A stretch of DNA of 51,863 bases from a virus. The stretch spans positions 1 to 51,863 of the IMG/VR virus record IMGVR_UViG_3300043409_000904; one strand, written 5' to 3'. The notes beneath the pieces are model-generated. The model was not told where the DNA came from. It made no database searches and saw only the letters and a list, made by a program, of their open reading frames with translations. Below, piece by piece: positions 9,366 to 47,862 of the stretch (position 1 is its first letter; the number at the start of each line of letters is the position of its first letter). A program made the position numbers and the translations under genes.

Positions 9366-11111
9366 ATGGCAAGAACTAATTTATCTTTAGGAAATTTATA
9401 CAGAGCAGTAAGTGGTTCGGCAAGAACAACTCAAGCAGTTTCAATCGGTGGATTGGGTGGTAATGCTGCAAATAGTGCATTTACATCATTCGCAACAGAT
9501 GCCATTACTGTAACAGTTCCAACATTTACATATATAGTTGAAAGTACTGCTGAAAACGCACAATTTTCATTTACAACAACTGGTTCACTTTTTTATTCTA
9601 AAGTCCAACAAGTTACAAACAATTATACTTGTTCATTTGGTAATGCAAACTTTACGGCAGGAACTAGAACATTTGGAACAGGACCAACCATAATTCCATT
9701 AACACCTGCGGCAGTTGCAGCTGCAAACTATTCGGAAGCTAGTTCTATTTTATCTATGCAATATGCAGATGGATATAATTTGAATGCAACAAATTATGGT
9801 ATATTAACTACAAAGACTTTATACGCAGTAGATGTTTATAATACAATAAACCAACCTGATTTTTGTTTATTATTTGGTACAAAAGTAAAATTATCAAATG
9901 GTAGTGATATCAATGTTGAAGATTTAAATGTTGGAGATGTAATTAAAGCATGGGTGCCAGCAGGATTACCCGATGAATCACAACCATTAGATTCTGAAAA
10001 TGTAGATTGGAGATTTTATCAATTAGAAAGTAATTCAGGTTCTTATACCGAAGTAGTAGTTGAAAATTTAGTATTTAACTTTGCAAGTGGATATTACAAT
10101 ATAAATGATGGTTTGATTCAATCAACCGGAACACACCCACTATGGGTATTTGATAATGAAATTCAAAAATATCATTTCAAAAATGTAGAAAACATATTTC
10201 CTGGTGATTTAATTGTTAAATTTACCGAAGAAGGTGGTGTAGAAGAAATTGAAGTATATGATATAGCACAAGTAATTGATGATATTGAAATTGTAACTAT
10301 AAATGTAGAAAATGCCGATGTGTATTTGGCAAATGGTACAATATCACATAATAAAGGAACAGCAACCCAACCTTATATTCCATCTTCTGGATTAAGAATG
10401 TATTTAGAACCTGCCAAAACTGCATCATTTGCATCATTAACACTACCATCAACGGGAACACCATCGGTGGATGTATTGGATATGAGTGGATATGGAACAG
10501 GTGTTAGACCTGGAGCACAGGCACCTCTATCATTAGCAAGTTCAAATCCATCATACAATAATGGTGCAAGTAGAAAAGAAAGATATTATTCTTTTGATGG
10601 TGGTGATTTATTCTATAAAGATACTGCATCTAATATCAATGGTGGTATTTCTCAATTCAATACTAACACCGGAACTATTCATTTATGGATTAGACCTACA
10701 ACAACATTAGGTACAACTACAAGACATATTTTTGACTATGGTGGGTTTTATGGTATAGCAATTGAATCATCTGATAGTTCTACTTTAAATAGAGTAAAAT
10801 TCTATGGTAGTACATTAGGTAATAGTGCACAATTAACAACTTCATTACCATCAAACGTTTGGTATATGATTTCAGCAACTTTCCAACCATCTGGAACTGT
10901 AACGGTTTATGTAGATAAAACATCAGTAGGAACGTTCACTGCATCAGCATTCACTGCACCATCATCTACTAACTATGTAACAATAGGTAGTAATAGTGCA
11001 AGAACAACGTTTTGGAATGGACAGATTGGGGCAGTATTATTCTACAATACATTACAAACAGCCGCATTAGTAGGACAAGTATATGACTATTTCTCACCAA
11101 CATATAAGTAA
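9366..11111 (+). CDS. Tail protein: N-domain, Hint domain, LamG lectin
   Basis: A 581-aa protein in three parts. Residues 1-166 are a beta-rich virion-type domain (MARTNLSLGNLYRAVSGSA). Residues 167-329 are a Hint (hedgehog/intein) domain: it starts with Cys at CLLFGTKVKLSNG, continues with INVEDLNVGDVIKAW, has the block B motif TGTHPLW (His257), and ends with VYLANGTISHNKG (His328-Asn329). The residue after HN is Lys, not the Cys, Ser or Thr that intein splicing needs. From about 340 to the end is a ConA-like/LamG lectin domain (IHLWIRPTTT, FWNGQIGAVLFYNT). No homing endonuclease fits within 163 residues. I infer a carbohydrate-binding virion protein whose chain may be cleaved or rearranged by the Hint domain. 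Confidence 0.75.
   Translation: MARTNLSLGNLYRAVSGSARTTQAVSIGGLGGNAANSAFTSFATDAITVTVPTFTYIVESTAENAQFSFTTTGSLFYSKVQQVTNNYTCSFGNANFTAGTRTFGTGPTIIPLTPAAVAAANYSEASSILSMQYADGYNLNATNYGILTTKTLYAVDVYNTINQPDFCLLFGTKVKLSNGSDINVEDLNVGDVIKAWVPAGLPDESQPLDSENVDWRFYQLESNSGSYTEVVVENLVFNFASGYYNINDGLIQSTGTHPLWVFDNEIQKYHFKNVENIFPGDLIVKFTEEGGVEEIEVYDIAQVIDDIEIVTINVENADVYLANGTISHNKGTATQPYIPSSGLRMYLEPAKTASFASLTLPSTGTPSVDVLDMSGYGTGVRPGAQAPLSLASSNPSYNNGASRKERYYSFDGGDLFYKDTASNINGGISQFNTNTGTIHLWIRPTTTLGTTTRHIFDYGGFYGIAIESSDSSTLNRVKFYGSTLGNSAQLTTSLPSNVWYMISATFQPSGTVTVYVDKTSVGTFTASAFTAPSSTNYVTIGSNSARTTFWNGQIGAVLFYNTLQTAALVGQVYDYFSPTYK
9864..10352 (+). other. Hint / bacterial intein-like domain
   Basis: Encodes residues 167-329 of the 581-aa tail protein. 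Visible blocks: N-terminal Cys167 with GTKVKLSNG; VEDLNVGDVI; THP with His257; C-terminal LANGTISHN. The +1 residue is Lys330. This matches type A bacterial intein-like domains, which keep the terminal His-Asn but do not need a nucleophile after it. Confidence 0.75.
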
Positions 11112-22441: not shown

Positions 22442-23218
22442 ATGAAAGAATACAAACATTTATCCGTTGAGGAAAGACAACAAATGACCTTTGATTGGAG
22501 ATACAGGGGGTTCACTGTACTAGAATTACTAACAGAAGATGAAGTTGATGAAATCAATGAAGAATTGAATAGATTGAGGTTAGAAAGAAATGTAAACGAA
22601 CCAGAAAAATGGACAGAATTTGAACCATTTATGTACCCGCATAAACTCTCTGCAAAATTAGAAAAACTATTCGTACATCCAAAAATGATTGAAGCGTGTG
22701 AATATCTAATGGATTCGGACATAGTTGGTATGCAAACGTGGGCATATTACAAACCAAAAGGTGAATTAGGAAGAGATCAACATCAAAACGCATTTTATAC
22801 AGGATGTGGACATAATGAAATCATTAACACTGCATTAGCATTAGATAATCACGACCCTGAAAATGGGGCAGTGTGGAATTACGAAGGTTCTCACCGATTG
22901 AATACATTACCTATTGAAGATAATGAAGAACGTAAAGCAACAAATACCGGTAATTGGAGAAGTGAGAGAGGTAAAAGTTGTGTTATGCCGGAAGGACATG
23001 ATTTCAAAAAAATTGAAGGATATTTAAGAAAAGGACAAGTAGCATTATTACATTCACACGTAGTACACGGTTCAGAGCCAAACGGAGATACTACACGAAT
23101 GAGAAGAAACTTTTTGAGTGGGTATTTAAAAAAAGGAGCGTATTTTAATCCAGGTACTCAAATGAAAAGAGAGGTAATTGATATTTATGAATTAAAAACA
23201 AAACATTGGGGAGAATAA
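22442..23218 (+). CDS. PhyH-like dioxygenase with altered metal site
   Basis: A 258-aa protein of the phytanoyl-CoA dioxygenase (PhyH) family of Fe(II)/2-oxoglutarate oxygenases. The family signature is visible: DQHQNAFYTG (first ligand His114), ALALDNHDPENGAVWNYEGSH, and HSHVVHGSEPN (His209) followed by Arg residues around 219-222 for 2-oxoglutarate. The usual H-x-D is H-x-N here (Asn116 in place of Asp), so the iron site is unusual. It lies between baseplate genes and a DNA polymerase gene, with the GTTATG start context, and is followed by a host-type promoter. Substrates in the family are small molecules or modified side chains; a nucleobase or protein side chain is possible, but nothing here shows which. 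Confidence 0.75.
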   Translation: MKEYKHLSVEERQQMTFDWRYRGFTVLELLTEDEVDEINEELNRLRLERNVNEPEKWTEFEPFMYPHKLSAKLEKLFVHPKMIEACEYLMDSDIVGMQTWAYYKPKGELGRDQHQNAFYTGCGHNEIINTALALDNHDPENGAVWNYEGSHRLNTLPIEDNEERKATNTGNWRSERGKSCVMPEGHDFKKIEGYLRKGQVALLHSHVVHGSEPNGDTTRMRRNFLSGYLKKGAYFNPGTQMKREVIDIYELKTKHWGE

Positions 23219-23219
23219 T

Positions 23220-23250
23220 TTTGTAATATCAATTTTTTTTTGTATATTTG
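23220..23250 (+). promoter_or_regulatory. Host-type promoter of polA-like gene
   Basis: TTTG at 23220-23223, 19 nt spacer, TATATTTG at 23243-23250. The ATG at 23257 is 7 nt after the final G, so the expected transcription start falls at or next to the start codon. Confidence 0.8.
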
Positions 23251-23256
23251 AACTAT

Positions 23257-24516
23257 ATGTTCATTATAGAGAAAGAAGAAGATGTTAAATTAATTAACCC
23301 AATTGATACTAAACTGGTAATCCCAATTTGGAGTTCTAACATCGGACACGAATTGGGATTTCCTATTTCTTTTGTATACATACGTACCAAAGATACTGAA
23401 TATATTTTAAATTTCCAACACATCGATGCAAATAGAGTTAAACCCTTTAATATCAGTGAGTTATGTAATGAGAATACATTAGTATTGGGAAATCGTTATA
23501 TAGGTACTAAAGGATACGACTACGAGTATATCTACTTCGAACACTACGGAATTACCTTTTCACCTAAAGAGTTCTTTAGAGAGGTTTATAATGGGTACAG
23601 AACAAACTACGCAGAATTGAATGATTGTATACCTTTAATGAAATGGTACAGTATATTAAAAACTATACCATTGATAGATGATATAAAAAGTTGGTATAGA
23701 AGGTATTCACATTCAATAACACAGTTAGGAAGAATCGAAGGGGCGGGGGTTCGGGTCGAAGAAGCAAAATTTATTGATAGTTTTAATTTCCCGCAGCAGT
23801 ACATCCACAACGGTTTGGTGTATACAAAGTACAATCCATACACCACTACATCTCGTCCATCCAACCACCACTTAAATGTAAACTGGTCTGCGTTAAATAA
23901 ATCCGATGGTATCCGCTCCTCCATCATATCCCGTTTTGAGGAAGGTACATTAATTCAATTTGATTATGAATCATACCACATTCGTTTAATTGCGGGGTTA
24001 ATAGGTTATGAGTTTCCAAAAGGAGAAACTGCCCATCAACACCTCGCAAACCTTTACGGTACGGATTATGAAACTGCCAAAGGGCTAACATTTCGGTATC
24101 TATATGGGGGTTTAGATGATTTGGCGAGGGGGATACCATTTTTTCAAAAGGTAGAAGTGTATATTAGTGAGATATACCAAAAGTTTGTAATTTCGGGTTG
24201 TTTAACGACTCCTCTATATAAGAGAGAAATACACCACTCAAAAATTGAAAACCCGACTGAACAAAAAGTATTTAATTACCTATTACAGGCATTAGAAACT
24301 GAAATTAATTACTTAAAGATTGAAGATATCCTAAACACTTTGGTAGGGAAACGGTCAAAATTGATATTATACACCTATGATGCATTTCTTATAGATACTC
24401 ATCCCGAAGAGAGAGATTGGGTGTTAAGTGAATTACCAATTGGAATGGAAAGGGGTGGGTTTCCAATACGTTCTTATGAGGGAATTAATTATGATAATTT
24501 GAAAGTAATTAAATAA
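23257..24516 (+). CDS. Divergent family A DNA polymerase-like protein
   Basis: A 419-aa protein. I chose ATG 23257 because the longer frame starts with a TTG inside the promoter -7 box. Family A polymerase motifs appear in order: TTTSRPSNHHLN (Pol I T-x-R-x-S-x-x-x-N-L), then GTLIQFDYESYHIRLIAG (motif A, Asp236), AKGLTFRYLYGG (motif B with Lys275, Phe279 and Tyr283 in the O-helix spacing) and ILYTYDAFLID (motif C, Asp375). Both catalytic Asp are kept. Motif A Glu of DYSQIELR is His here, O-helix Arg754 is Tyr, and the HDE of motif C is YDA. The first 170 residues may be a degenerate exonuclease domain (KGYDYEYIYFEHYGI resembles the exo II region). It is much shorter than Pol I Klenow (about 600 aa). 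The role is unknown; repair or translesion synthesis is possible. Confidence 0.7.
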   Translation: MFIIEKEEDVKLINPIDTKLVIPIWSSNIGHELGFPISFVYIRTKDTEYILNFQHIDANRVKPFNISELCNENTLVLGNRYIGTKGYDYEYIYFEHYGITFSPKEFFREVYNGYRTNYAELNDCIPLMKWYSILKTIPLIDDIKSWYRRYSHSITQLGRIEGAGVRVEEAKFIDSFNFPQQYIHNGLVYTKYNPYTTTSRPSNHHLNVNWSALNKSDGIRSSIISRFEEGTLIQFDYESYHIRLIAGLIGYEFPKGETAHQHLANLYGTDYETAKGLTFRYLYGGLDDLARGIPFFQKVEVYISEIYQKFVISGCLTTPLYKREIHHSKIENPTEQKVFNYLLQALETEINYLKIEDILNTLVGKRSKLILYTYDAFLIDTHPEERDWVLSELPIGMERGGFPIRSYEGINYDNLKVIK

Positions 24517-24556: not shown

Positions 24557-24958
24557 ATGATAAAGTTAAAAGATATACTAAACGAGAGTGTTATGAGTGT
24601 ATCGGATTTAGATGATACATTGGAACAATATAGAAAGGATACTAATTGGACAGATTGGTATATGAGTGGAGGATGTTATACATTTGCTGATGCACTAAAT
24701 AAGTATTTAGAAAATAGGGGTAAGTATATAGCTATAATAGAGCCGGAAACAAAAGCTATGGTTCATGTTTGTATTTTGTATAACGGAAAATATTGTGATT
24801 ATAACGGATGTAGAAGTAAAAACGATATACTATCCGATATCACTATAAACGGAACTCCTATATGGAAAAATATAAGTAGGTCACAAATAACATCTGAATA
24901 TAATTTTGATAATAGTGAAGTAAACTCAATACTAAAAAATTTAAGTAAAATAAAATAA
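24557..24958 (+). CDS. Putative injected head protein, papain-like
   Basis: A 133-aa protein. Its first ten residues, MIKLKDILNE, match the N-termini of the genes at 24958 and 26387 and resemble T4 capsid-targeting sequences, which the prohead protease gp21 removes after a Glu at about position 10. The rest holds YMSGGCYTFADAL (Cys40), MVHVCILYNGKYCDYNG (His70, Asp81): a Cys, His, Asp order and spacing like papain-fold peptidases or amidases. I infer an enzyme packed in the capsid and injected with the DNA, acting on a host target early in infection. The catalytic assignment is tentative. The next gene starts on the last base of its stop codon. Confidence 0.6.
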   Translation: MIKLKDILNESVMSVSDLDDTLEQYRKDTNWTDWYMSGGCYTFADALNKYLENRGKYIAIIEPETKAMVHVCILYNGKYCDYNGCRSKNDILSDITINGTPIWKNISRSQITSEYNFDNSEVNSILKNLSKIK

Positions 24959-26382
24959 TGATAAAGTTAAAAGATTTATTAAACGAAGTAAAATTCAAAT
25001 CACCGGATTATATTATTAGTACAACCCCCGCATCTAGTTTACCGGCACAAAAATTAGGTCATGCAGATGTATCTGTTGGTTTAAAAATGGCAGAAAAACT
25101 TAAAAACTATACATTACATGTTAGACACTATAAATTAGTACACGCCGATGGAAAAGTAGCATTAAAACTAACACCGGAAGGTAAGACCGCAGTAAGAGTA
25201 CGAACCGAAGATGACCCAAAATACTTACAATTGATACAAAAGACAGTTAATGATGTTGTAGCAGATTTTGTAAGTAAAATAAAAGAATCAGTAAACGAAG
25301 CATTAGACCCTAAAGCAGAAAAATTCTTAGATGCTATTCAGGTTAATGATAGAAGTATAAAGGATTTAAAGAATATCACTGTCGATGCAACCCCACAAGG
25401 TAATTGGTCAGTTTATTACAAAGGTAAACGTATGTTTACTCTTAATGGTAAGATGTTAGATGATAAAACTATTATGAAATATGGTTTAGAACATATGGAT
25501 GAGAGTTTATCAGAAGGCAAATACTATGTAACCTACAATAGAGGTAGGGGACAGGGTAAGGGGTTGGAAAAGGAATTTGACCAAAAATCATTTAGTTCAA
25601 CCGATAAACCAAAAGTATTTAATTCATATAATGATGCTAAGAAATACGCTGAAAAAATGGAAAAGATGTTCCAACATTCAATCGGTGGCGGTGTCGCATA
25701 TTGGGTATCGGATGAGAAGATGAATCCTATAAAAGAATCAGTAAACGAAGATAAAGTTTATATTGATTTTCTAAATAAGAAAAAGGGATTTAAGCAAGAT
25801 AGGATTAAATTTAATTCTTATGAAGATGCCGTTAAATGGGCAAAGAAGAATTTTGACAAGTTTGACCCCGATATGATTAAATACGAATCAGTAAACGAAG
25901 ATGCACCCATCTACAAAGATTGGGATGAATTTGTAAACCCACACTATATTTTAGTAACATTAAAAAATGGTAAAAAACTAAAAATAGAGAAAAAAAATGT
26001 TAAAGGTGGTACAAATATATATCACGCAATTTTAAAAGCTTTTAATGATAATAACCATAAAATAACTAATAAAGTTGTAAGTGGAATGATTGATAGATTA
26101 GGTGAATCGGTAAACGAAGCTCAAGCAAAGTATGATGTATATCACAATTCATATACATCGGCAATTCAATCGGCTAAAGAGTACGCAGAGAAAAACGGAT
26201 ATACTGTTAGCGATGATGATTCATTTAGAAAAATAGGTATGGGACCTCGTAAACCATCGGAAGGAAAGACCAATAGCTTTAGTATTGAATTATCATATGG
26301 TGGTAAAGATTCCAGAAAACAATTACATATTCAAGTATATGGTATGAGAAACAAATACGAATTAAACTGCTATATAGGATAA
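24958..26382 (+). CDS. Putative internal head polyprotein with ESVNE sites
   Basis: A 474-aa protein starting MIKLKDLLNE (capsid-targeting type). The sequence ESVNE occurs four times (residues 110-114, 260-264, 310-314, 383-387) and ESLSE once (182-186), always preceding a new module. Cutting after each final Glu, as T4 gp21 does at hydrophobic-x-Glu, would give six pieces of about 50-104 residues. Modules 3 and 4 share FNSY-x-DA-x-K-x-A. The last module (YAEKNGYTVSDDDSFRKI, GPRKPSEGKTNSFSIEL, QVYGMRNKYELNCYIG) is a domain I recall from virion proteins of marine T4-like phages. No membrane segment is seen. I infer a set of small proteins packed into the head as one chain and released by the prohead protease. 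Confidence 0.65.
   Translation: MIKLKDLLNEVKFKSPDYIISTTPASSLPAQKLGHADVSVGLKMAEKLKNYTLHVRHYKLVHADGKVALKLTPEGKTAVRVRTEDDPKYLQLIQKTVNDVVADFVSKIKESVNEALDPKAEKFLDAIQVNDRSIKDLKNITVDATPQGNWSVYYKGKRMFTLNGKMLDDKTIMKYGLEHMDESLSEGKYYVTYNRGRGQGKGLEKEFDQKSFSSTDKPKVFNSYNDAKKYAEKMEKMFQHSIGGGVAYWVSDEKMNPIKESVNEDKVYIDFLNKKKGFKQDRIKFNSYEDAVKWAKKNFDKFDPDMIKYESVNEDAPIYKDWDEFVNPHYILVTLKNGKKLKIEKKNVKGGTNIYHAILKAFNDNNHKITNKVVSGMIDRLGESVNEAQAKYDVYHNSYTSAIQSAKEYAEKNGYTVSDDDSFRKIGMGPRKPSEGKTNSFSIELSYGGKDSRKQLHIQVYGMRNKYELNCYIG
25285..26119 (+). repeat. Interspersed 16-bp repeat coding for ESVNE
   Basis: GAATCAGTAAACGAAG occurs exactly at 25285-25300, 25735-25750 and 25885-25900, and with one change at 26104-26119. 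The units are spread over 835 bp of the polyprotein gene. Conservation at DNA level suggests module duplication or exchange. Confidence 0.85.
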
Positions 26383-26386
26383 TATT

Positions 26387-26809
26387 ATGATAAAACTGAA
26401 AGATTTAATTAAAGAAATCGAATTTTCTACACAGAAAGCATTTGATACATATAGTAAGGCTCATAAATTAAGACCTGATACGAAAGTGAAAGTTGCAGGT
26501 AAAAACACTACCGCAGGGGCTGCATCGCAAGTAAAAGGTACATCTGTATTTGGTAAAGCAGGTGGAGCATCTGCTAAACCTGATGGTATGGATACAGTTA
26601 ATGCAATCGCAGCTAGGACTGGTATAAGAACAACTGCAGTGGCAGGTTGGGCAGATACAAATGGTGTAAATTTGGCTTCTATTTCAAAAGATTTAAAATC
26701 TAAAAAGTTAAAACCAATGGATTTAATGACCGCAATTAGTGGTAATCCTGGTAACAAATACGCTAAAGATATAATCGCAAAGTATTCCCAAAGTGGTGGA
26801 AGTAAATAA
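26387..26809 (+). CDS. Putative internal head protein
   Basis: A 140-aa protein with the capsid-targeting-like start MIKLKDLIKE, so cleavage after Glu10 would leave about 130 residues. The next part, FSTQKAFDTYSKAHKLRPDT followed by KVKVAGK, is basic and resembles segments of virion proteins from other T4-like marine phages. A Gly/Ala-rich linker then leads to a helical C-terminus (IAARTGIRTTAVAGWA, then SISKDLKSKKLKPMDLMTAI). High Lys content would suit binding to packaged DNA. It is the third gene in a row with this N-terminal tag. The function after injection is unknown. Confidence 0.6.
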   Translation: MIKLKDLIKEIEFSTQKAFDTYSKAHKLRPDTKVKVAGKNTTAGAASQVKGTSVFGKAGGASAKPDGMDTVNAIAARTGIRTTAVAGWADTNGVNLASISKDLKSKKLKPMDLMTAISGNPGNKYAKDIIAKYSQSGGSK

Positions 26810-26818
26810 TAAAAACAA

Positions 26819-28969
26819 ATGATTCCAAATTTTGAAGAAATATTATCAGAATTAAGTTATAGAATTCCGGAGGGTATAATTGATCTTACTAAACCACATC
26901 AGGTAAATGAACTGATTGAGATACTGAAAGAACATAATATATCATCACCAACTGCACTTGCTCAAAAAGCAACTCAATGGTTCACTTTATTAAAAGAGGA
27001 TGATATTGTAAAAAACAAAAAAACAGGAAATATATATACGGTTAAAACTTTTAACCCGGATACGCACCTAAAACCAACACCTGCTGAAATAGATAAGGCA
27101 AAGGGTGATGGGGAAATAAAACCAGAACCTACACCAAATATTTTTGACAAACCAACTGAAAAGGATACCGATGCTGGTGAGACTTTAAGTTTGGATTCAT
27201 TTTTAGATGGAATACCAGATACATCCAATACTATAAAGGGGAAAGATTCGGTAAAAGCAGGGGCAAACGCAATACTTAATCAGTTAGATAAATTTGCAAA
27301 TGCACCAAATAATCCAAACGCGGATTCTCATAAAAAAACAAAATCATTAATTGATAAAATGTTTAATGGTGAATCATTGGGTGATGATGAAAAGGCGTTC
27401 TTATACCAATTTATTAGAATTGCAGAACCAACCGTAAACAATCCAAATTCTGCCAAATTTTATATTGCAAAAGAACCTAATAATTTTAAAGGAAATAAAA
27501 GGGCTAAGATTGAAATCGGTAGTAGAAGTGGTGGCACACCTACGCTTGCTGCATTTAGAAAATTTACCGAAAAGGCTGGGTTATCACAAATGTCCGCATC
27601 TACGTTTGGTACAAAACTAACAACTCCAAACCAAACATTTACTGGTGAAGATGGTAAGGTTAAGTTAATTATGGGTAAAGATGGAAACGAATGGACATCG
27701 GTTGTTAAGAATGAAAACGATATAGTAACTTCAATAAACTTTGGTGATACTAAACTTACACGATTAGATTTAAATGACCCTAATATATCAGAAACAGAAT
27801 TAAAATTAAGAGAGAGAAATAATCGTAATATGGATGATTATTCCAGAGCAATTGAAAAGCGTGATTTGAAATTTATTGATATGGATGAGGGTGTAACACC
27901 TGATACTCCTGAAAATAGAGTTATTGTTATCAGAGGTGCATTAACTGGGATGGCAACTAGATTGAGAGAATTGGCTAACAAAAGTGGTACTAATGAGGAA
28001 CGGGTTACAAATATTATAGATTCAATTGATACCTTTGCAGAAAGAAATCCAAACGAATCCCCACAAGAATGGTTTAAAGATTTAAACGCAGTAATGTCTT
28101 CAATTGCAAATGATGAAGGAGAGCCATCATTAAGAGAATCTTGGGCAAACTATGCAGAAGTATACGCGGCTATTGTAGCTATGCATGGCGGTGGTAATGG
28201 TACTGAAAATGGCGCATGTGCTTTATTACCGGAAAGTACAACATTGCAAACGGTTGATGTACTTACTATTAATACAAATGGTGTAGGTGAGAGGAGGATT
28301 GTAACATTGGATGGGAGGAGTGTTAAAAAAGGAGTAGGAGCACCTAGTGCCTTAACATCTAAAGCCGAAAAATCTACTTATAAAAATGATAAAGACGGTA
28401 CTAAAAAGACATCTATTATAGAATTATCCAAATCGCACGATGATATATACCGTATGAAATTGGATGAACCAATTGAATCGCATACTGAATACCAAACCAA
28501 ATATCGCAGTAATCTAATAGATACTGTTAGAGAATTGGGAGTAAGTGGCGATTATATCACTACCATAGAAGATGCTCTTACAGAACCAAACAGAGGATGG
28601 GTATCTGTTGGTAAAGCACTTGCTCAAATAGAACTTCAAAGAACTAAAAAGAACATAGATGCTTCGGCAGAAACTATGAAAAAAATTCGTATGAGATTGG
28701 AAAGTTATTATTTATACAATAAATTGGCACACGATGTATATAATACAAACGTAGATATTCAGGATTTTAGTAATGATAGTATATTATCACAATCAGATGA
28801 TAGGGGTGGTACTCAATTAGTTAAAAATAAAGATATTAAAATAGATTCATCTGATGGTGTTAATATTTTAGCCTATATTAAATCTGAATTTAATGTTGGG
28901 ACATGGGGAGATGGTGGCAGGAGTGGAAACGCTGGAGCGGGTAGATTCCATAATGCACCTAAAAAATAG
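26819..28969 (+). CDS. Large putative virion (head) protein
   Basis: A 716-aa protein. The N-terminus MIPNFEEILSEL could be a further targeting peptide (cut after Glu10), although it differs from the MIKLKD type. It continues with YRIPEGIIDLTKPHQVNELI and ILKEHNISSPTALAQKA, a segment I associate with structural proteins of T4-like marine phages. A linker rich in Pro, Thr and Asp follows (about 85-140), then a mixed alpha/beta body, with GGGNGTENGACALLPESTT near 460 and a C-terminal Gly-rich tail (GDGGRSGNAGAGRF). I see no enzyme motif that I trust. Its place after three tagged genes, all downstream of one hybrid promoter, supports a capsid-associated role. Confidence 0.5.
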   Translation: MIPNFEEILSELSYRIPEGIIDLTKPHQVNELIEILKEHNISSPTALAQKATQWFTLLKEDDIVKNKKTGNIYTVKTFNPDTHLKPTPAEIDKAKGDGEIKPEPTPNIFDKPTEKDTDAGETLSLDSFLDGIPDTSNTIKGKDSVKAGANAILNQLDKFANAPNNPNADSHKKTKSLIDKMFNGESLGDDEKAFLYQFIRIAEPTVNNPNSAKFYIAKEPNNFKGNKRAKIEIGSRSGGTPTLAAFRKFTEKAGLSQMSASTFGTKLTTPNQTFTGEDGKVKLIMGKDGNEWTSVVKNENDIVTSINFGDTKLTRLDLNDPNISETELKLRERNNRNMDDYSRAIEKRDLKFIDMDEGVTPDTPENRVIVIRGALTGMATRLRELANKSGTNEERVTNIIDSIDTFAERNPNESPQEWFKDLNAVMSSIANDEGEPSLRESWANYAEVYAAIVAMHGGGNGTENGACALLPESTTLQTVDVLTINTNGVGERRIVTLDGRSVKKGVGAPSALTSKAEKSTYKNDKDGTKKTSIIELSKSHDDIYRMKLDEPIESHTEYQTKYRSNLIDTVRELGVSGDYITTIEDALTEPNRGWVSVGKALAQIELQRTKKNIDASAETMKKIRMRLESYYLYNKLAHDVYNTNVDIQDFSNDSILSQSDDRGGTQLVKNKDIKIDSSDGVNILAYIKSEFNVGTWGDGGRSGNAGAGRFHNAPKK

Positions 28970-36031: not shown

Positions 36032-37087
36032 ATGGTAAATTACGATAGTTTTAGTAAATTCATAGAAAATGATACTTTGGCATTGGAGTATCACAGAATA
36101 AGCAGAGATATAACTACTATCACAGATAGGGTGTATGCTGAAAATGTGATATTCCAATATCATAGGAAAGAAGGATTTCCACACTATAACGTTAATAACC
36201 ATAATAAGTTATCACAATTGAAATCATTAATTAATTTTGATGAAAACACAATATATGGGGATGGTAAATTAAACCAAACTATGCATTGCTTATCGTTAGC
36301 TTGGACTTATTTCCCGCATTGGGTAGAAGTTTTGTGTGGTAGTAGTAAAATGAGACCGATTGATTATTGGAATGATGATAAAAAATTAAAAGAAATTATT
36401 AGAAAAACGTGGGATTGGCAAGTTAAGCATGGGAATGGTACATTTACACTAAATAGATTACGACAAAACTTTAAGATATATGGTGGAAACCAATCGGTTA
36501 GTAATTTTAGACCATCGGTAGCCAAATGGATATACAATACATATGGTGGAGATACGGTATGGGATATGAGTTGTGGATGGGGCGGGAGATTGATAGGATT
36601 TTTGGCAAGTAATTGTAAAACATACATAGGTACTGATCCATCTACAAAGACGTATGAAGGGTTATTACAAATAAAAGATGAACTAAATTTTTTTAATAAA
36701 GAAATTATCTTACATAAATTAGGTTCGGAAGAATTTGTACCTGAAAGTGAAAGTTTGGATTTATGTTTTACATCTCCTCCATATTTTGATACAGAAAAGT
36801 ATTCAGAGGAACTTACACAATCTTACAAAAAGTATCCAAACGAAAGCGATTGGATAGATGGGTTTTTAACAAAGACTATTATAAACTGCCATATTGGTTT
36901 AAAAGTGGGTGGTAAGATGCTAATAAACATAGCAAATACACCAAAGTATAAACAAATTGAAAGTGAAACTATTAGAATTGCCGAAGAAATTGGATTTGAA
37001 AAAACAGATATACTATATATGATACTATCATCCGTAGCCGGTAAGGGTAATAAACTTGAACCAATATTTGTATTTACCAAAAAATAA
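36032..37087 (+). CDS. SPPYF methyltransferase-like protein, paralogue 1
   Basis: A 351-aa protein. A variable N-terminal part (1-150) precedes a SAM-dependent methyltransferase core: VWDMSCGWGGRLIGFLAS (motif I, about 177-193), YIGTDPSTKTYEG, SLDLCFTSPPYFDTEKYSEE (motif IV, SPPYF 248-252), TQSYKKYPNESDWIDGF, and GLKVGGKMLINIANTP. Motif I before motif IV is the alpha or gamma order. Two more members of the family lie at 41718 and 43732; all share FxPxxAK, a GWG motif I, and SPPYF followed by Y-S and a QS pair. SPPY is typical of N4-cytosine methyltransferases; the true reaction is unknown. Its ATG overlaps a remnant gp41 stop. Confidence 0.72.
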   Translation: MVNYDSFSKFIENDTLALEYHRISRDITTITDRVYAENVIFQYHRKEGFPHYNVNNHNKLSQLKSLINFDENTIYGDGKLNQTMHCLSLAWTYFPHWVEVLCGSSKMRPIDYWNDDKKLKEIIRKTWDWQVKHGNGTFTLNRLRQNFKIYGGNQSVSNFRPSVAKWIYNTYGGDTVWDMSCGWGGRLIGFLASNCKTYIGTDPSTKTYEGLLQIKDELNFFNKEIILHKLGSEEFVPESESLDLCFTSPPYFDTEKYSEELTQSYKKYPNESDWIDGFLTKTIINCHIGLKVGGKMLINIANTPKYKQIESETIRIAEEIGFEKTDILYMILSSVAGKGNKLEPIFVFTKK

Positions 37088-41186: not shown

Positions 41187-41727
41187 TTTTATAAATTTTT
41201 TAAATATGTTAAATTTCGTAAAAGCGGAAAGTGGCTCAAACAAAATATTAGAAGCCACCAATAATGCAATGTCTATAATAGACCTGTATCCAGATATATT
41301 CCCACACCTATATAAGCAGGGTTTTAAATTAGAAAAATATTTTGAAAAGGGAAACATCATACTGCAAGATGGAGTTGTAATTACATTTGGTAGATATAAG
41401 AGTAAAGGTAGATTATCAAAAAACGCAACCACATATAAAAAGAGTGGAGATTTTATACTACATCAAATTGCATCAAACGGTTCAGTTAAAGATGGTGCTA
41501 AAAGTGTATTGAATGAGTTTATAAAGTATTGTAAAAAAGAAAGAGCCGAAAACTTATACCTAACTGTAAGAGAGTTTAACACAAAGGCAGTTGCTTTTTA
41601 TTTAAAAAATGGATTTATAATAGACTCTAAAATACATTGGACAAGTAAAAAAGATGGAGTAATACCTGGATTAGTTTTCAGATTAAGATTAGTTGCAGAT
41701 AAAAATATAGAAACCGTATGTATATAG
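41179..41727 (+). CDS. GNAT-type acyltransferase
   Basis: A 182-aa protein (173 aa if started at the in-frame ATG 41206). The C-terminal part has the GNAT look: GDFILHQIASNGSVKDGAKS (the acetyl-CoA-binding region, although the classic R/Q-x-x-G-x-G/A is not clear), YLTVREFNTKAVAFYLKNGF and a last strand VIPGLVFRLRL. The N-terminus begins MLNFINFLNMLNFVK, made by a 27-bp duplication of the start region. It overlaps asnB by 8 bases and the next gene by 10 bases, so the three are translationally coupled. Mom of phage Mu, which modifies adenine in DNA, also has a GNAT fold; a similar DNA-modifying role is possible but not shown by any residue I can name. Confidence 0.65.
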   Translation: MLNFINFLNMLNFVKAESGSNKILEATNNAMSIIDLYPDIFPHLYKQGFKLEKYFEKGNIILQDGVVITFGRYKSKGRLSKNATTYKKSGDFILHQIASNGSVKDGAKSVLNEFIKYCKKERAENLYLTVREFNTKAVAFYLKNGFIIDSKIHWTSKKDGVIPGLVFRLRLVADKNIETVCI

Positions 41728-42959
41728 AATATTTTAATAAGTTTAAAGGAATGACACCGTATCTTTATATTGATAAGGAAGAGTGGAGTTATATAAAAAA
41801 TACATTCGAAATAAGTGATGTAAAAGAAAGTTTGGCAACTATCTGTATGGAGTATCCATTACCAACTGCAGATTTAACTGAAAGTGATGCCAGAAGTGAA
41901 TACCTTTCATTAAAGGGAACGAGGTGGCGTGAATTATTAAAAGAAGGTGAATGGTTTCCGAGAAAAGCAACTGATAGTAAGTATTCATTAGACTTTAAAG
42001 GAAAGAAACAGTATATACGAAGAATAAATACTGGCAACGCTGCATCTAATTATTTTCAACAAAGAAATAGATGGAGTGTAGATGGTACGGTTTCACCCGG
42101 ACCGCAAAGAACTTGGGAAAGTTTTGATTTTATGAAAACTTTAATGGGTGGTTTATACACTCTAAAATTTGAATCAGTAAGTAGAAACGAATTAAGAGTA
42201 TGTTTGAGCTTACGAAAGTACATATGTTCTCAATTTAAACCAAATGTTGCAAAAGCATTGTATGATTATTTAGAATGTGAAAATGTTTTAGATATATCGG
42301 CAGGTTGGGGTGATAGGTTATGTGGATTCTTCGCCAGTGAAAAGGGAAAACATTATGTAGGAATAGACCCTAGAAAAGAAAACCACCCAATATATAGGGA
42401 GCAGGCTGATTTTTACACAAAACACAACGGTTTTTTTGAAACAGAAAAGATAGCAGACTTTATTGAAGCACCTGCGGAGGATGCGGACTTAACAATGTAT
42501 AAAGACCATTTTGATATTGTATTCAGTTCACCACCGTATTTTAATGTTGAAAGATACTCATATGATGATACACAGAGTTGGGTTAGATATAAAAATATAG
42601 ATGCTTGGAATAAACTATTCTTACATAAAACCATAGAAAATGTGTGGCCAACCATTAAAGATGGTGGATATCTTGCAATAAACATTGCGGATGTATATGC
42701 TGCTTCCAAAGGTGATGGTAAAGGGTATCAGGAAATAACAAACCCAATGAATGATTACATTTCAACATTAGAAGGAGCAGTTTATGAGGGATGTTTAGGT
42801 ATGGAAATGGCTAAACGACCTGGAAGTGCTGGAGCAGGCGCAATAATAGAAGGAGATGAGGGTAGATATACCGAAGAGGCATTATTAAAAGCTGAAGAAG
42901 GTAAGAATAAAATATTTTGTGAACCTGTTTGGGTTTGGAGAAAGCAAATAAATTTGTAA
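41718..42959 (+). CDS. SPPYF methyltransferase-like protein, paralogue 2
   Basis: A 413-aa member of the same family as the genes at 36032 and 43732. The N-terminal part (1-150) is its own (KGTRWRELLKEGEWFPRKAT). The core shows FKPNVAKALYDYLECENVLD, then ISAGWGDRLCGFFAS (motif I, about 191-207), YVGIDPRKENHP, FDIVFSSPPYFNVERYSYDD (SPPYF 271-275), TQSWVRY and IKDGGYLAINIADVYAAS. A C-terminal extension (AKRPGSAGAGAIIEGDEGRY) is absent from paralogue 1. It overlaps the GNAT gene by 10 bases, and its end carries the TTTG of the gp45 promoter. The pairing with AsnB-like and GNAT enzymes suggests more than simple methylation. Confidence 0.72.
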   Translation: MYIEYFNKFKGMTPYLYIDKEEWSYIKNTFEISDVKESLATICMEYPLPTADLTESDARSEYLSLKGTRWRELLKEGEWFPRKATDSKYSLDFKGKKQYIRRINTGNAASNYFQQRNRWSVDGTVSPGPQRTWESFDFMKTLMGGLYTLKFESVSRNELRVCLSLRKYICSQFKPNVAKALYDYLECENVLDISAGWGDRLCGFFASEKGKHYVGIDPRKENHPIYREQADFYTKHNGFFETEKIADFIEAPAEDADLTMYKDHFDIVFSSPPYFNVERYSYDDTQSWVRYKNIDAWNKLFLHKTIENVWPTIKDGGYLAINIADVYAASKGDGKGYQEITNPMNDYISTLEGAVYEGCLGMEMAKRPGSAGAGAIIEGDEGRYTEEALLKAEEGKNKIFCEPVWVWRKQINL

Positions 42960-43012: not shown

Positions 43013-43732
43013 ATGAACAAAAATCGTGTTACAAGGTTTATCCAAAAGTATAACTTAGCTGGATTAGTAGAATCAGTTTCTTGGAAAGCTGAAAATGGTA
43101 AATTAACTACTCGTTTTATCTCTGATGATAAGACAGTATTGGGTGAAATTCAATTGGATAATTTCAATTTTACTTCACCGGAGTTGGGTATATATACCAC
43201 ATCAACTTTAACAAAATTGTTATCAGTGTTAGGTGATGATATAGAATTAGAACCACAACTAGTAGATGGTAAAGCAGTGAATATTTTCATTAACAGTGAT
43301 GATACCAAAGCACAATTTCAATTAGCAGATTTGGCAGTAATCCCATCGGTTCCGGATTTGAAACAATTGCCTGATTTTGATGTAAGTATTGGGTTCGATG
43401 GTAAGTTTATTGAAAAGTTTATAAAAGCAAAAAACGCATTGAGTGATGTTGATACATTTACAGTCTATACTGATAAAGGTGAATTGAAATTAGTATTAGG
43501 ATATTCCAACATTAACTCAAACAGAATTGTGTTTTCAGTAGATAAGGAGTATAAAACCGAAGTTAAACCCATTTCATTCTCTGCAAAGTATTTAAAAGAG
43601 ATTTTCTCTGCAAATAAGGAAGCAAATTCGGTTGTATTAAACGTATCAACTTCTGGATTAGCGCATGCTGAATTTAAGATTGATGATTTTACAGCAAAGT
43701 ATTACCTTGTAGAAGTGCAATTAACTGCATAA
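43013..43732 (+). CDS. gp45: Sliding clamp gp45
   Basis: A 239-aa homologue of T4 gp45 (228 aa). Signs are the basic N-terminus (NKNRVTRFIQKYNLAGLVES), LGEIQLDNFNFTSPELGIYT, LTKLLSVLGDDIELEPQLVD, then FQLADLAVIPSVPDLKQLPD and FSAKYLKEIFSANKEANSVV with the final AEFKIDDFTAKYYLVEVQL. It forms a trimeric ring that tethers the polymerase; in T4 it also activates late transcription. Its promoter here has both host-like and late-like features. The next gene starts on the last base of its stop codon. Confidence 0.92.
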   Translation: MNKNRVTRFIQKYNLAGLVESVSWKAENGKLTTRFISDDKTVLGEIQLDNFNFTSPELGIYTTSTLTKLLSVLGDDIELEPQLVDGKAVNIFINSDDTKAQFQLADLAVIPSVPDLKQLPDFDVSIGFDGKFIEKFIKAKNALSDVDTFTVYTDKGELKLVLGYSNINSNRIVFSVDKEYKTEVKPISFSAKYLKEIFSANKEANSVVLNVSTSGLAHAEFKIDDFTAKYYLVEVQLTA

Positions 43733-45303
43733 TGGCGTTTAACTATCCAAAAAAATACTTTTACGAAAGAAACGAATGGTTTTACGATCCGGAAGTAAAT
43801 CTTAAATACGAAGATGTATTGAAGATGTCATTTCCTGATTTTGAAAAATGGGTTGCTTTTTTTAGAGAATTAGTGGTTAGAAAATGGAATGAAACCGGCG
43901 CACCACCCCGAATAGGGGTGGATGAGGCCGAGATGATTGAGCAGTTCTCCAAACTACAAACTTATAAAGTGGATAGGTTTGAAGAAAAAGATGATGAGGG
44001 TAATGAAGTTATTTTTAACTTTAATAAATTCGCAACACCTGTAAATCAATTCTTTCCGGCTATGTATAAAACGGCTATTGGTGGTTCGGCATACGATAAA
44101 CCAAAGCCATCTATATATGATGTGTTTTCAGATGATGCATACTTTCCAGAGTTTGTTAAACAAATGAGAAGATTGACAAGGCAAGATGGTATGTATCGTT
44201 TTTCTAAAACTTTACATTTGGATAATCCAGAGTTTCACAATTCTCACATACAAAGCGGTAAAGAATGGATTGAAAAATGGACAAGTGGTGGTAGTAAAGA
44301 AGGGTATGGGTTTTGTTTATCTCAAGCAGATAGTAAAGTACCATCTCCACCAATTACCGCGCAGGAAGTAAAAGACCTTTACAAAGCTGGTATATTGAAG
44401 TATGACAACATATCTTCGCTTAAAACCGCAGACTGGGGTGAGAATATTGATAATTTAACAGATATACCAAAACAACCAATACAAATAAAAGTATATCCAT
44501 TAGGTCAAACTATATTTCCAGAAGCAACTGCAGCATTCCGTATTGGTATGGGCACACAAGCAGTGGTAAATTTTCCACCATTAACTGCAAAGTATCTTTA
44601 CAAACGATTTACAGACCATATTAAAGAGCAGGATGTAATCAACATATACGACCCATCGGCTGGTTGGGGTGGTAGGATTTTGGGAGCAATGAGTGTGGAT
44701 GATAGAAATATACATTACATTGGAAATGATCCAAATACAGAAAACTATATAGAGGAAATTGGTAAAACTAGATATGAATATTTAGCAGAATTTTTTAATA
44801 ACAAAATACCAGGAGCTTCTAATCCTTTTTGGGGACACGCCAATACCTATGATATATTCACAACCGGTTCTGAAATTATCAGTGAAGAAGCTAGATTTCA
44901 AAAGTATAAAGGTAAATTAGATTTCGCATTCACATCACCACCATACTTTGATAGAGAAAGGTATTCATCAGATGAAAGTCAATCTTTCAAAAAGTTTAGT
45001 AATTATAGCAGTTGGAGAGACGGGTTTTTAAGACCAACCCTAACAACCGTATATGAGTACTTACGGAATGATAGATTTGCATGTTGGAACATAGCAGACA
45101 TTAAAATGGGTCCTGATAAGTTTTTTACATTAGAACAGGATAGTATAGATATACTTACTGAATTAGGAATGGAATATAAAGGAAAACTACGGATGACAAT
45201 GAGCCCTATGACGGGGATGGATTTATCCAAAGCAAAAAACTGTATGCAGATAGAAGGAACCTGGTACAAATACGAACCAATATTCATATTTTACAAACCA
45301 TAA
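43732..45303 (+). CDS. SPPYF methyltransferase-like protein, paralogue 3
   Basis: A 523-aa protein, the longest of the three paralogues. The N-terminal 280 residues are distinct (YPKKYFYERNEWFYDPEVNL, then GAPPRIGVDEAEMIEQFSKL). The core has FPPLTAKYLYKRFTDHIKEQ, IYDPSAGWGGRILGAMS (motif I from about 307), YIGNDPNTENY, LDFAFTSPPYFDRERYSSDE (SPPYF 402-406), SQSFKKFSNYSSW and RNDRFACWNIADIKMG. It sits between the clamp and DNA polymerase genes with a one-base overlap at its start and no gap before the polymerase ATG, so it is made in step with the replisome. That would let DNA be modified as it is made. Confidence 0.72.
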   Translation: MAFNYPKKYFYERNEWFYDPEVNLKYEDVLKMSFPDFEKWVAFFRELVVRKWNETGAPPRIGVDEAEMIEQFSKLQTYKVDRFEEKDDEGNEVIFNFNKFATPVNQFFPAMYKTAIGGSAYDKPKPSIYDVFSDDAYFPEFVKQMRRLTRQDGMYRFSKTLHLDNPEFHNSHIQSGKEWIEKWTSGGSKEGYGFCLSQADSKVPSPPITAQEVKDLYKAGILKYDNISSLKTADWGENIDNLTDIPKQPIQIKVYPLGQTIFPEATAAFRIGMGTQAVVNFPPLTAKYLYKRFTDHIKEQDVINIYDPSAGWGGRILGAMSVDDRNIHYIGNDPNTENYIEEIGKTRYEYLAEFFNNKIPGASNPFWGHANTYDIFTTGSEIISEEARFQKYKGKLDFAFTSPPYFDRERYSSDESQSFKKFSNYSSWRDGFLRPTLTTVYEYLRNDRFACWNIADIKMGPDKFFTLEQDSIDILTELGMEYKGKLRMTMSPMTGMDLSKAKNCMQIEGTWYKYEPIFIFYKP

Positions 45304-47862
45304 ATGTATAAAAATATATTCTTTGAAAGAACAAAAAATTTAATCCACCTTTGGGATGATAAGAATGGGCATAGTACCTTTCCATATAGAAAGTACGCGT
45401 ACAAAAAAGACCCAAATGGACAGCATCGTTCAATGTATGGTGATAAACTTACAAAGGTAGCAAAGTGGGAAAAAGATGAATCAGATGAATTATTTGAATC
45501 CGATATTCCAGAAACAACACGTGTATTAGTTGATATATACGATTCTGATATTCCATCGGTAGGACATACTGTTATGACCTTTGATATTGAGGTTGAAATG
45601 ATAAGTGGATTACCAAATACATTAGAAGCAAAAAATGAAATAACTGCAATTGCATCGCATGCCAGTTCAACCAAACTATATGATGTATTCGTATTAGATA
45701 AGGAAAAGAAAATAAATAAAAATGAAGAATCATTTGATAAGGCAGGTAGAAAAGTAAATGTGCATGTTTTTGATAATGAGAAAAGTTTGCTAATGGCATT
45801 CTTAACATATTACCAATCAGTGGATGCAACTATTTTAACAGGTTGGAATATTGACTTTTTTGATATACCGTATTTATATAATCGTATTAAGAGGGTATGT
45901 GGAGAAGGTCACGCAAAGAGATTGTCACCAATTGGGCAAACATTTTATTCACCATACAGACAAAGATGGAGTTTTGGTGGGGTATCTATATTAGATTATA
46001 TAAACCTATACAAAAACTACAACTATGGTTTGGAGAGTTCTTATACATTAAATCACATCGCTACCAAAGAATTGGGTAGAGGTAAGATTGAGTATGAAGG
46101 AAGTTTGGATGATTTATTCGAAAACGATTTACAAAAATTTATTGAGTATAACATAGTCGATGTTGATTTGGTAGTATCTATGGATGAGAAACTTCAATTC
46201 ATAGATTTATGTAGAGCAATCTGTCACGCTGGATATGTACCGTATGAAGATTATATGTTTTCATCTAAATATTTAGAAGGAGCATGCCTTGCATATCTTA
46301 AAAAGAAAGGATTAGTTGCACCCAATAAACCGAGAGATAGAAAGGAAAGAATGCAGGCTCTTAAAGATAACAACCAAGAGAAGTTTATCGGAGCATATGT
46401 AAAAGAACCTATTGTTGGTAAGTATGATTGGATTTATGATTTGGATTTAACATCCCTATATCCATCGATTATTATGACACTTAATATCTCACCTGAAACA
46501 AAGATTGGTAAAATCACAGGATGGGATCCAGCGGACTGGATTAAGGGAGAAGATAAGGAATACACCATAGTAGGTAAAGATGATACCTATACATACAGTA
46601 GAAGTGAATTACAGGATGTTATTAAAGATGGTAATTTGGGTGTAGCAGCAAATGGCGTACTTTATTCGCAAGATACACCTGGACTAATTGCTGATATTTT
46701 GGATACGTGGTTTTCACAAAGGGTTGAGTTTCGTAAATTAGAAAAACAATACGGTGAAGCGGGTGATACTGAAAAATATGAGTTCTACGCCAAAAGGCAG
46801 TTAGTTCAAAAGATTCTTCTTAACTCTATGTACGGTGTGTTAGGATTGCCCGCATTTAGGTTTTACGATATTGATAACGCGGAGGCGGTTACTATTACCG
46901 GTCAAACTGTTATTAAGAAAACCGCAGAAATGGCTAACATCAAATATTGGAAAGAGTTGGGTACAAAGGAAGATTACAATGTGTATATCGATACAGATTC
47001 AATCTATATGATGGCAGAGCCATTAGTAAAACATAGATATCCTGAATACAAAGAGTTTGATGAAAAAAGAATGGCGGTTGAAGTGGATAATATAGCAACT
47101 GAAACTCAAACATTCTTAAATTCATTCTATGATATATTAGCTGAACGATTCTTCTTTATAGCAAAAGATAAACATCGTTTTGAAATTAAGAAGGAATACA
47201 TCAGTAAAGCTGGATTTTGGGTAGCAAAGAAGCGATACGCCCAATGGATGATTTTAAAAAATGGAATCCCATGCGATAAGTTAGATGTAAAGGGATTAGA
47301 TGTTGTTAGAAGTTCATTCCCCAAAGCGTTTCAGGAACAAATGAGTGGTATGTTGAAAGATATTCTAATGGGTAAGGATAATGATTATGTAGATAAGAAG
47401 TTATTAGAATTCAAAAACAATATGGTTAATCTACCTGTTAATAAGATAGCAAAAGGTGGAGCAATTAAAGAGTTAAGTAAGTATGATAATGGTAGTTGGA
47501 GAAAGGATAGTGGATTAGCAATTGCTAATTTTGAAAAGGGAACACCGGCTCACGTTAAAGCTGGAATTTCATACAATCGATTACTAAAATTCTTCAACGC
47601 ACCATTTAAGCACGAACCAATTAGAGATGGTGATAAAGTAAAATGGGTATATCTTAAAAATAACCCATTAGGATTGGATACAGTTGCATTTAAAGATTAT
47701 AATGACCCAAAGCAGATTATGGATTATATAGAGCAATATGTTGATAGAGATATGCTTTATAAGGCAGAATTGGAAAATAAAGTAGATGATTTTTACACTG
47801 CATTAAAATGGCAAAAGGCATCGGTGGAAGCACAAACTGCTAAAAAGTTTTTTTCGTTTTAA
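45304..47862 (+). CDS. gp43: Family B DNA polymerase gp43
   Basis: An 852-aa homologue of T4 gp43 (898 aa). The proofreading exonuclease has MTFDIEVE (Asp94, Glu96) and ILTGWNIDFFDIPYLYNRI. Polymerase motif A is DLDLTSLYPSI (379-389), motif B KILLNSMYGVLG (503-514), motif C YIDTDSIYM (Asp563, Asp565). The C-terminus is truncated relative to T4 but keeps the clamp-binding type end (TAKKFFSF). It is the replicative polymerase of the phage. Its ATG follows the stop of the methyltransferase-like gene with no gap. A second polymerase of family A is encoded at 23257. Confidence 0.95.
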   Translation: MYKNIFFERTKNLIHLWDDKNGHSTFPYRKYAYKKDPNGQHRSMYGDKLTKVAKWEKDESDELFESDIPETTRVLVDIYDSDIPSVGHTVMTFDIEVEMISGLPNTLEAKNEITAIASHASSTKLYDVFVLDKEKKINKNEESFDKAGRKVNVHVFDNEKSLLMAFLTYYQSVDATILTGWNIDFFDIPYLYNRIKRVCGEGHAKRLSPIGQTFYSPYRQRWSFGGVSILDYINLYKNYNYGLESSYTLNHIATKELGRGKIEYEGSLDDLFENDLQKFIEYNIVDVDLVVSMDEKLQFIDLCRAICHAGYVPYEDYMFSSKYLEGACLAYLKKKGLVAPNKPRDRKERMQALKDNNQEKFIGAYVKEPIVGKYDWIYDLDLTSLYPSIIMTLNISPETKIGKITGWDPADWIKGEDKEYTIVGKDDTYTYSRSELQDVIKDGNLGVAANGVLYSQDTPGLIADILDTWFSQRVEFRKLEKQYGEAGDTEKYEFYAKRQLVQKILLNSMYGVLGLPAFRFYDIDNAEAVTITGQTVIKKTAEMANIKYWKELGTKEDYNVYIDTDSIYMMAEPLVKHRYPEYKEFDEKRMAVEVDNIATETQTFLNSFYDILAERFFFIAKDKHRFEIKKEYISKAGFWVAKKRYAQWMILKNGIPCDKLDVKGLDVVRSSFPKAFQEQMSGMLKDILMGKDNDYVDKKLLEFKNNMVNLPVNKIAKGGAIKELSKYDNGSWRKDSGLAIANFEKGTPAHVKAGISYNRLLKFFNAPFKHEPIRDGDKVKWVYLKNNPLGLDTVAFKDYNDPKQIMDYIEQYVDRDMLYKAELENKVDDFYTALKWQKASVEAQTAKKFFSF

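Follow-up and report, generated by a model that had tools for sequence, protein, structure and literature searches.

In bacteriophage T4, the internal proteins IPI-IPIII and Alt carry a capsid-targeting sequence (CTS) and are cut by the prohead protease gp21 (PMC9026906, PMC3012670). In IPIII, the N-terminal 10 residues are enough for packaging; within the CTS, positions 4 and 7 act in targeting and positions 8 and 10 in processing, and gp21 cuts after L/I-X-E (PMC9026906). Alt is packaged and injected, and is an ADP-ribosyltransferase (PMC9026906, PMC5512222). Here we compare with these proteins a locus of four consecutive genes, P1 to P4, in the IMG/VR virus record IMGVR_UViG_3300043409_000904, which was analysed in its entirety (51,863 bases, a fragment) and is called the window below. 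The four open reading frames (ORFs) all lie on the + strand, almost abut, and begin with T4-like N-terminal tags; in P2, tag-like sites also lie inside the chain, between cassettes that recur in other phages. With a probability of about 0.68, we read the locus as a late operon for cargo in a T4-like water phage, which would provide CTS-tagged cargo, together with a shuffleable polyprotein cut by the prohead protease, for injection at infection.

N-terminal tags of P1 to P4

The four genes and two of their tags are:

24557..24958, + strand: P1, 133 aa, tag MIKLKDILNE followed by SVMSVSDLDD
24557..24586, + strand: P1 tag, capsid-targeting-like (MIKLKDILNE), L-x-E before the body kept in homologues
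24958..26382, + strand: P2, putative mosaic cargo polyprotein of 474 aa, tag MIKLKDLLNE and six cassettes
24958..24987, + strand: P2 tag, capsid-targeting-like N-terminus (MIKLKDLLNE), codons different from those of the other tags
26387..26809, + strand: P3, 140 aa, tag MIKLKDLIKE
26819..28969, + strand: P4, 716 aa, tag MIPNFEEILSE followed by LSYRIPEG

These N-termini are as quoted in the initial annotation of this DNA, MIKLKD(I/L)(L/I)(N/K)E three times and MIPNFEEILSE once, with the Glu at residue 11 in the fourth. Its comparison with T4 held, save for Alt: a tag of about 10 residues that ends in Glu is also present in the T4 control sequences (MKTYQEFIAE in IPII and IPIII, MAKINELLRE in gp24), but not in Alt, whose propeptide has 7 residues (PMC9026906). 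MIKLKDLLNE has L4, L7, L8 and E10, and has M1, K3, L7, L8 and E10 in common with T4 gp24. Hydrophobic residues at positions 4, 7 and 8, Glu10 and L/I-x-E were found exactly in P1-P3, and with a shift of one residue in P4.

Of the 610 N-termini of the window and its relatives, 18 fit the strict motif M[IKR][KR][LI]..[LIV][LIV].E, compared to 1 of 3142 internal 10-mers that start with Met, and these counts rule out chance similarity of the N-termini. A simpler test (L/I at position 8, E at position 10) gave 24 N-termini, whereas other positions averaged 9.4 and reached 16 at most, an enrichment that is weak when taken alone. Since codons differ from tag to tag, the tags are alike as amino acids and not merely as DNA, and duplicated DNA alone is ruled out as the source of their likeness.

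The tag also occurs in relatives and in IMG/VR; the initial annotation had proposed to search for it in the rest of the genome. A DNA scan of IMG/VR for MIKLKD[LF][LF]NE returned 114 stretches, and more than one tagged ORF was present in 34 of the 80 loci read, with up to 7 of them consecutive. The 162 tagged proteins from scan loci and genomes fell into 54 clusters by single linkage, mostly unrelated families; because the scan was seeded with the tag, the seed residues do not count as evidence, which comes from how varied the bodies are and from neighbours that were not seeded. The tagged families in IMG/VR include NUDIX proteins, ADP-ribosyltransferases, zeta-toxin-like kinases and zincins, with Pfam matches to NUDIX (4e-19), ART-PolyVal (4.5e-12) and AAA_33/zeta toxin (down to 2e-10), and weaker ones to DUF2608 on a HAD-like protein (3.8e-5) and to MPTase-PolyVal (0.033). 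The bodies of P1-P4 are unrelated to each other as well, so the view that only the tag is shared stands. In the isolate Mel-JY01, three neighbouring genes (L101 10276-12718, record positions 60276-62718) are tagged MIKLKSLLQE, MIKLKSLLKE and MIKLMSLVTE, each followed by ISDRVWH, and in the isolate immuto a gene at 24569 has the tag MIKLIDLLTE. A 1999-aa protein of contig G003 (50761-56760, L082) has several linker-type sites and appears to unite a KTDGQ motif of nucleotidyltransferase/ligase type with a metallopeptidase-like part that carries HExxH; a similar HExxH protein is encoded by a separate tagged gene in G001 (127963-128532).

P1 has homologues of 85% identity in phage contigs of 131-271 kb, and a homologue in L222 is placed between gp21 and gp22/gp23. 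Before the body, P1 homologues carry ILNE, VLNE, LVE or LME at differing registers. P1 itself matches Phage_YunG-like weakly (PF24591, E 2.8e-5, under the curated cut-off), and Cys40, His70 and Asp81 are invariant among its homologues, which suggests a small cysteine-type enzyme. P3 gave no significant match in Pfam, PHROGs, NCBIfam or a PDB sequence search. Its counterpart in the 99%-identical strain G006 has 312 aa with an extra C-terminal domain, so that P3 of the window is a shortened form. In G003, a gene located between gp21 and gp22 encodes a protein with 67% identity to the extra domain; this link to the prohead cluster is limited to the extra domain, and the shared 140 aa of P3 have no such link. 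No relatives of P4 were found in INPHARED at 1e-5. Its homologue in G004 (60% identity) starts with MSLINDIIAE followed by WAYRVDNG, and the first 40 aa of that homologue match Flavobacterium phage immuto, with MSVVDKIVIE followed by WAFRCKKG (35%, E 9e-7).

Three similar starts in neighbouring genes could stem from duplication of a gene start, and the N-termini would then be relics of tandem duplication, or products of chance, with no role in targeting. We consider this very improbable, given that the tag precedes 54 mostly unrelated families with differing codons, is nearly absent at internal positions, and in P1 homologues keeps its L-x-E through indels that shift its position.

Cassettes of P2 and the sites between them

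The initial annotation regarded the site as an N-terminal tag, which agrees with P1-P4; in P2, however, the N-terminus is not its only location, and five internal copies (four ESVNE and one ESLSE), overlooked at the time, divide the protein into six pieces:

24988..25284, + strand: cassette m0, 86-95% identity after a tag or an SVNE linker in L216, L004 and L093, and in L136 directly behind a tag with 48%
25285..25299, + strand: linker 1, GAATCAGTAAACGAA (ESVNE)
25300..25500, + strand: cassette m1, 100% identity in prohead-core genes of G003 and G011, and in L153 directly behind a tag with 81%
25501..25515, + strand: linker 2, GAGAGTTTATCAGAA (ESLSE)
25516..25734, + strand: cassette m2, 77-95% identity in many phages, and in L189 a diverged copy that follows a tag directly
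25735..25749, + strand: linker 3, GAATCAGTAAACGAA (ESVNE)
25750..25884, + strand: cassette m3, 73-98% identity in other phages, several in prohead-core genes
25885..25899, + strand: linker 4, GAATCAGTAAACGAA (ESVNE)
25900..26103, + strand: cassette m4, 71-96% identity elsewhere, in G008 alone behind the tag of a 102-aa gene
26104..26118, + strand: linker 5, GAATCGGTAAACGAA (ESVNE)
26119..26379, + strand: cassette m5, 56-87% identity elsewhere, directly behind a tag in L155 and L223, 39% in Methylophilales phage Melnitz

Every cassette recurs in other phages with 39-100% identity, in other orders and combinations, and m0, m1, m2, m4 and m5 are found elsewhere directly behind an N-terminal tag. 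All 46 of the resolved cassette contexts show a tripeptide [LIVMF]xE whose end lies 1-6 residues ahead of the conserved core (two further rows, which were unresolvable, are excluded from this count), so that a site of protease type is present at each domain border. Twelve different tripeptides are used in these contexts, and copies of m2 are preceded by LSE, LNE, LTE, VKE, VNE, INE, VSE or VVE. Since this pattern holds with 12 tripeptides, and L-x-E is kept at shifting registers in P1 homologues, the site is conserved as protein, and not only as DNA.

The linker is conserved as DNA too, with a sharply bounded block of about 16 nt over 47 distinct junctions, GAATCNGTAAACGAA-G. Among ESVNE copies, which are not independent in these counts, Val is encoded by GTA in 42 of 42 (49% in the genome) and Asn by AAC in 37 of 42 (29%), and the Ser codons TCT and AGT, together 48% in the genome, are never used. 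The 15-mer occurs 4 times in the window, all within P2, compared to 0.5 expected (<=2 mismatches). Relatives contain 36 copies (<=1 mismatch) in about 600 kb, of which 34 lie in frame within mosaic or prohead genes. Homology breakpoints were located <=5 aa from a linker in 25 of 50 cases, against 14% expected. The clearest case is G006, whose left flank is 98.9% identical to the window along 6.1 kb, and its right flank 99.4% along 8.0 kb; in its P2 the order of m3 and m4 is swapped and another piece replaces m2, and the swapped blocks start and end in linkers. From these comparisons, related phages seem to reshuffle predicted injected proteins as interchangeable modules. The linker DNA may be conserved because recombination is actively selected for, or just because the copies are recent. 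We put forward, tentatively, that the in-frame 15-bp element is a recombination site and a prohead-protease site at once, by which phages might combinatorially assemble a strain-specific set of small injected anti-host proteins in one polyprotein.

This DNA conservation would also be expected if ESVNE were a mere inter-domain linker or recombination junction, and P2 were packed and injected uncut as one multidomain chain. Multidomain injected proteins are known (PMC5512222), and no published polyvalent domains were detected in P2 with Pfam, PHROGs or NCBIfam. An uncut chain appears distinctly improbable to us, since boundaries that lack the DNA linker still have [LIVMF]xE in its various forms, and cassettes with their own tag stand alone, both of which argue for selection on the protein site.

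Head genes of relatives and surroundings of the locus

A gp21-like protease, the other item of the proposed search, was found in relatives and not in the window. Six of 10 related contigs encode Peptidase_S77 (gp21), and 9 of 17 encode Gp23. In 25 further tag-bearing contigs, S77 was found in 7 and a Gp23 match above the cut-off in 8, and every one of them that spans the prohead region has both. G018 and G019 have Gp23 without S77; they end within about 3-4 kb beyond gp23, short of the place where gp21 is expected from the spacing in G003, and tag-bearing contigs with neither gene are read as fragments. In the gp21 relatives, the motifs ELxHP and SSRGxGS (catalytic His and Ser) are preserved, and capsid proteins of the relatives have [LVI][DS]E aligned with the T4 cleavage site LTE65. 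Together with the fit to the T4 CTS and the homologues in prohead clusters, these comparisons lend good support to the initial proposal that the tags would direct capsid targeting and be processed by a prohead protease.

In G002, G003, G009 and G011, P2 cassettes are located within a gene between portal-side genes and gp21, the slot of T4 genes 67/68. The N-terminal domain of this gene (NVTGNVDGYxTPxAF) also occurs, free of cassettes, in immuto, Mel-JY01, G001 and G012. Further tagged genes are located between gp21 and gp23 in G002, G003 and G012, and G001 has a run of tagged genes at 125951-130133, outside the head cluster. The presence of cassettes in a core gene at the 67/68 position of several relatives would fit a role in head assembly, in which P2-type cassettes fill the prohead scaffold core, are cut, and are mostly expelled like T4 gp22, gp67 and gp68; T4 core proteins are likewise cut at many L/I-x-E sites. 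However, the cassettes vary from strain to strain and have been exchanged at high identity, unlike an essential scaffold, each has its own conserved sequence, and the same cassettes and tag are found far from the head cluster, beside tagged NUDIX proteins, ADP-ribosyltransferases and kinases. P2 itself lies outside the gp67/gp68 slot, between baseplate-type and replication genes. We judge a core filler to be an unlikely function of P2.

P1-P4 are flanked by tail/baseplate-type genes on one side, and by an SSB-like ORF (30282) and a UvsX/RecA-like gene (31163) on the other, where the role names of neighbours that were not searched are a reading of sequence alone. No capsid gene was recognised within the 51,863-base window. 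A scan for the T4-type late promoter TATAAATA gave 22 matches compared to 15 by chance, and was uninformative. A PhyH-type dioxygenase (22442-23218, Pfam 9.8e-16) adjoins the baseplate-type genes. At 23248-24516 there is a short ORF of 422 aa, weakly similar to family A DNA polymerases, and a similar short ORF is annotated in immuto; a family B-like polymerase ORF is also present, at 45304-47862. A 581-aa putative tail-fibre-like protein at 9366-11111 contains an apparent intein/Hint-like block (CLLFGTKVKLSNGSDINVEDLNVGDVIKAW ... VYLANGTISHNKG). The ORFs at 36032-37087, 41718-42959 and 43732-45303 share an SPPYF methyltransferase-like motif and similar sequence after it, and look like diverged paralogues.

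Proposed route of the cargo and comparison with known systems

For a cargo operon, sequence, genomic context and T4 genetics suggest the following route. The first 10-11 residues of P1-P4 would serve as propeptides for capsid targeting, by which the proteins dock in the prohead core, and a gp21-type protease, the phage's own being encoded outside the fragment, would cut after hydrophobic-x-Glu and free them in the head. For T4 IPIII, a change of the site Glu to Asp is reported to block the cut. In P2, a putative polyprotein, the same kind of site between six small domains would allow the protease to free up to six cassettes from one targeted precursor. The cassettes move between genes and phages, probably by recombination at the in-frame 15-bp linker, which would keep both the reading frame and the cleavage site. 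The matured cargo would exit the head with the DNA and act in the host at an early stage, with host defence or host enzymes as its most likely targets, as T4 IPI* and Alt and the enzymes behind the same tag in relatives would suggest.

Several observations weigh against this cargo proposal. The P2 cassettes had no significant match in Pfam, PHROGs, NCBIfam or the PDB sequence search, and no function can be assigned to them. Only half of the homology breakpoints (25/50) are near the canonical linker, and recent copying alone could explain the conservation of linker DNA. Both gp21 and gp23 are absent from the 52-kb fragment. The residue at cleavage position P3 of the linker is Val (VNE), where T4 prefers Leu or Ile; VSE is the capsid-protein site in G012 and immuto themselves, so Val does occur at that position there.

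T4 internal proteins are few and their roles are mostly unknown. With a readable N-terminal tag and internal sites, one could list from sequence alone which proteins uncultured T4-like phages inject, and pick out small anti-defence candidates by the dozen. The polyprotein would give a phage a way to vary its cargo fast, while frame, targeting and processing are kept. Since tag-bearing isolates exist (Mel-JY01 and immuto), the idea is directly testable by proteomics. No paper describing such a shuffleable tagged cargo polyprotein was found in the openly accessible literature, to which the search and hence our judgement of novelty apply, with preprints and most subscription journals outside its scope.

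Compared to T4 IPI-IPIII and Alt (PMC9026906, PMC3012670), the window and its relatives have the same 10-residue tag (hydrophobic residues at 4, 7 and 8, Glu10) before diverse bodies; the relatives have gp21 and gp23, and a tagged ADP-ribosyltransferase is like Alt in kind. In contrast to T4, the system predicted here has a far wider range of cargo (54 families), up to 7 tagged genes in a row, and a polyprotein of several cassettes with sites inside the chain. The T4 prohead core proteins gp67, gp68 and gp22 occupy the same slot in relatives and have several hydrophobic-x-Glu sites per chain, whereas here the pieces between the sites are conserved portable domains exchanged between phages. In the mobile regulatory (PeSL) cassettes of T-even phages, short conserved border DNA promotes module shuffling in T4-type phages; those cassettes are located between genes, whereas the repeat found here is coding and lies inside one reading frame. 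Head proteins of phiKZ and SPN3US are also cleaved after Glu by a gp21 homologue, at S/A-x-E, and include head ejection proteins with propeptides; they differ in the P3 residue and in their longer propeptides, and no cassette shuffling is described for them (PMC5694885). Polyvalent proteins of phages and plasmids likewise combine several unrelated domains in one probably injected chain (PMC5512222), and ART-PolyVal and, weakly, MPTase-PolyVal are matched among the tagged proteins; the domains of P2, however, are separated by sites that fit a prohead protease and by a conserved 15-bp in-frame DNA repeat.

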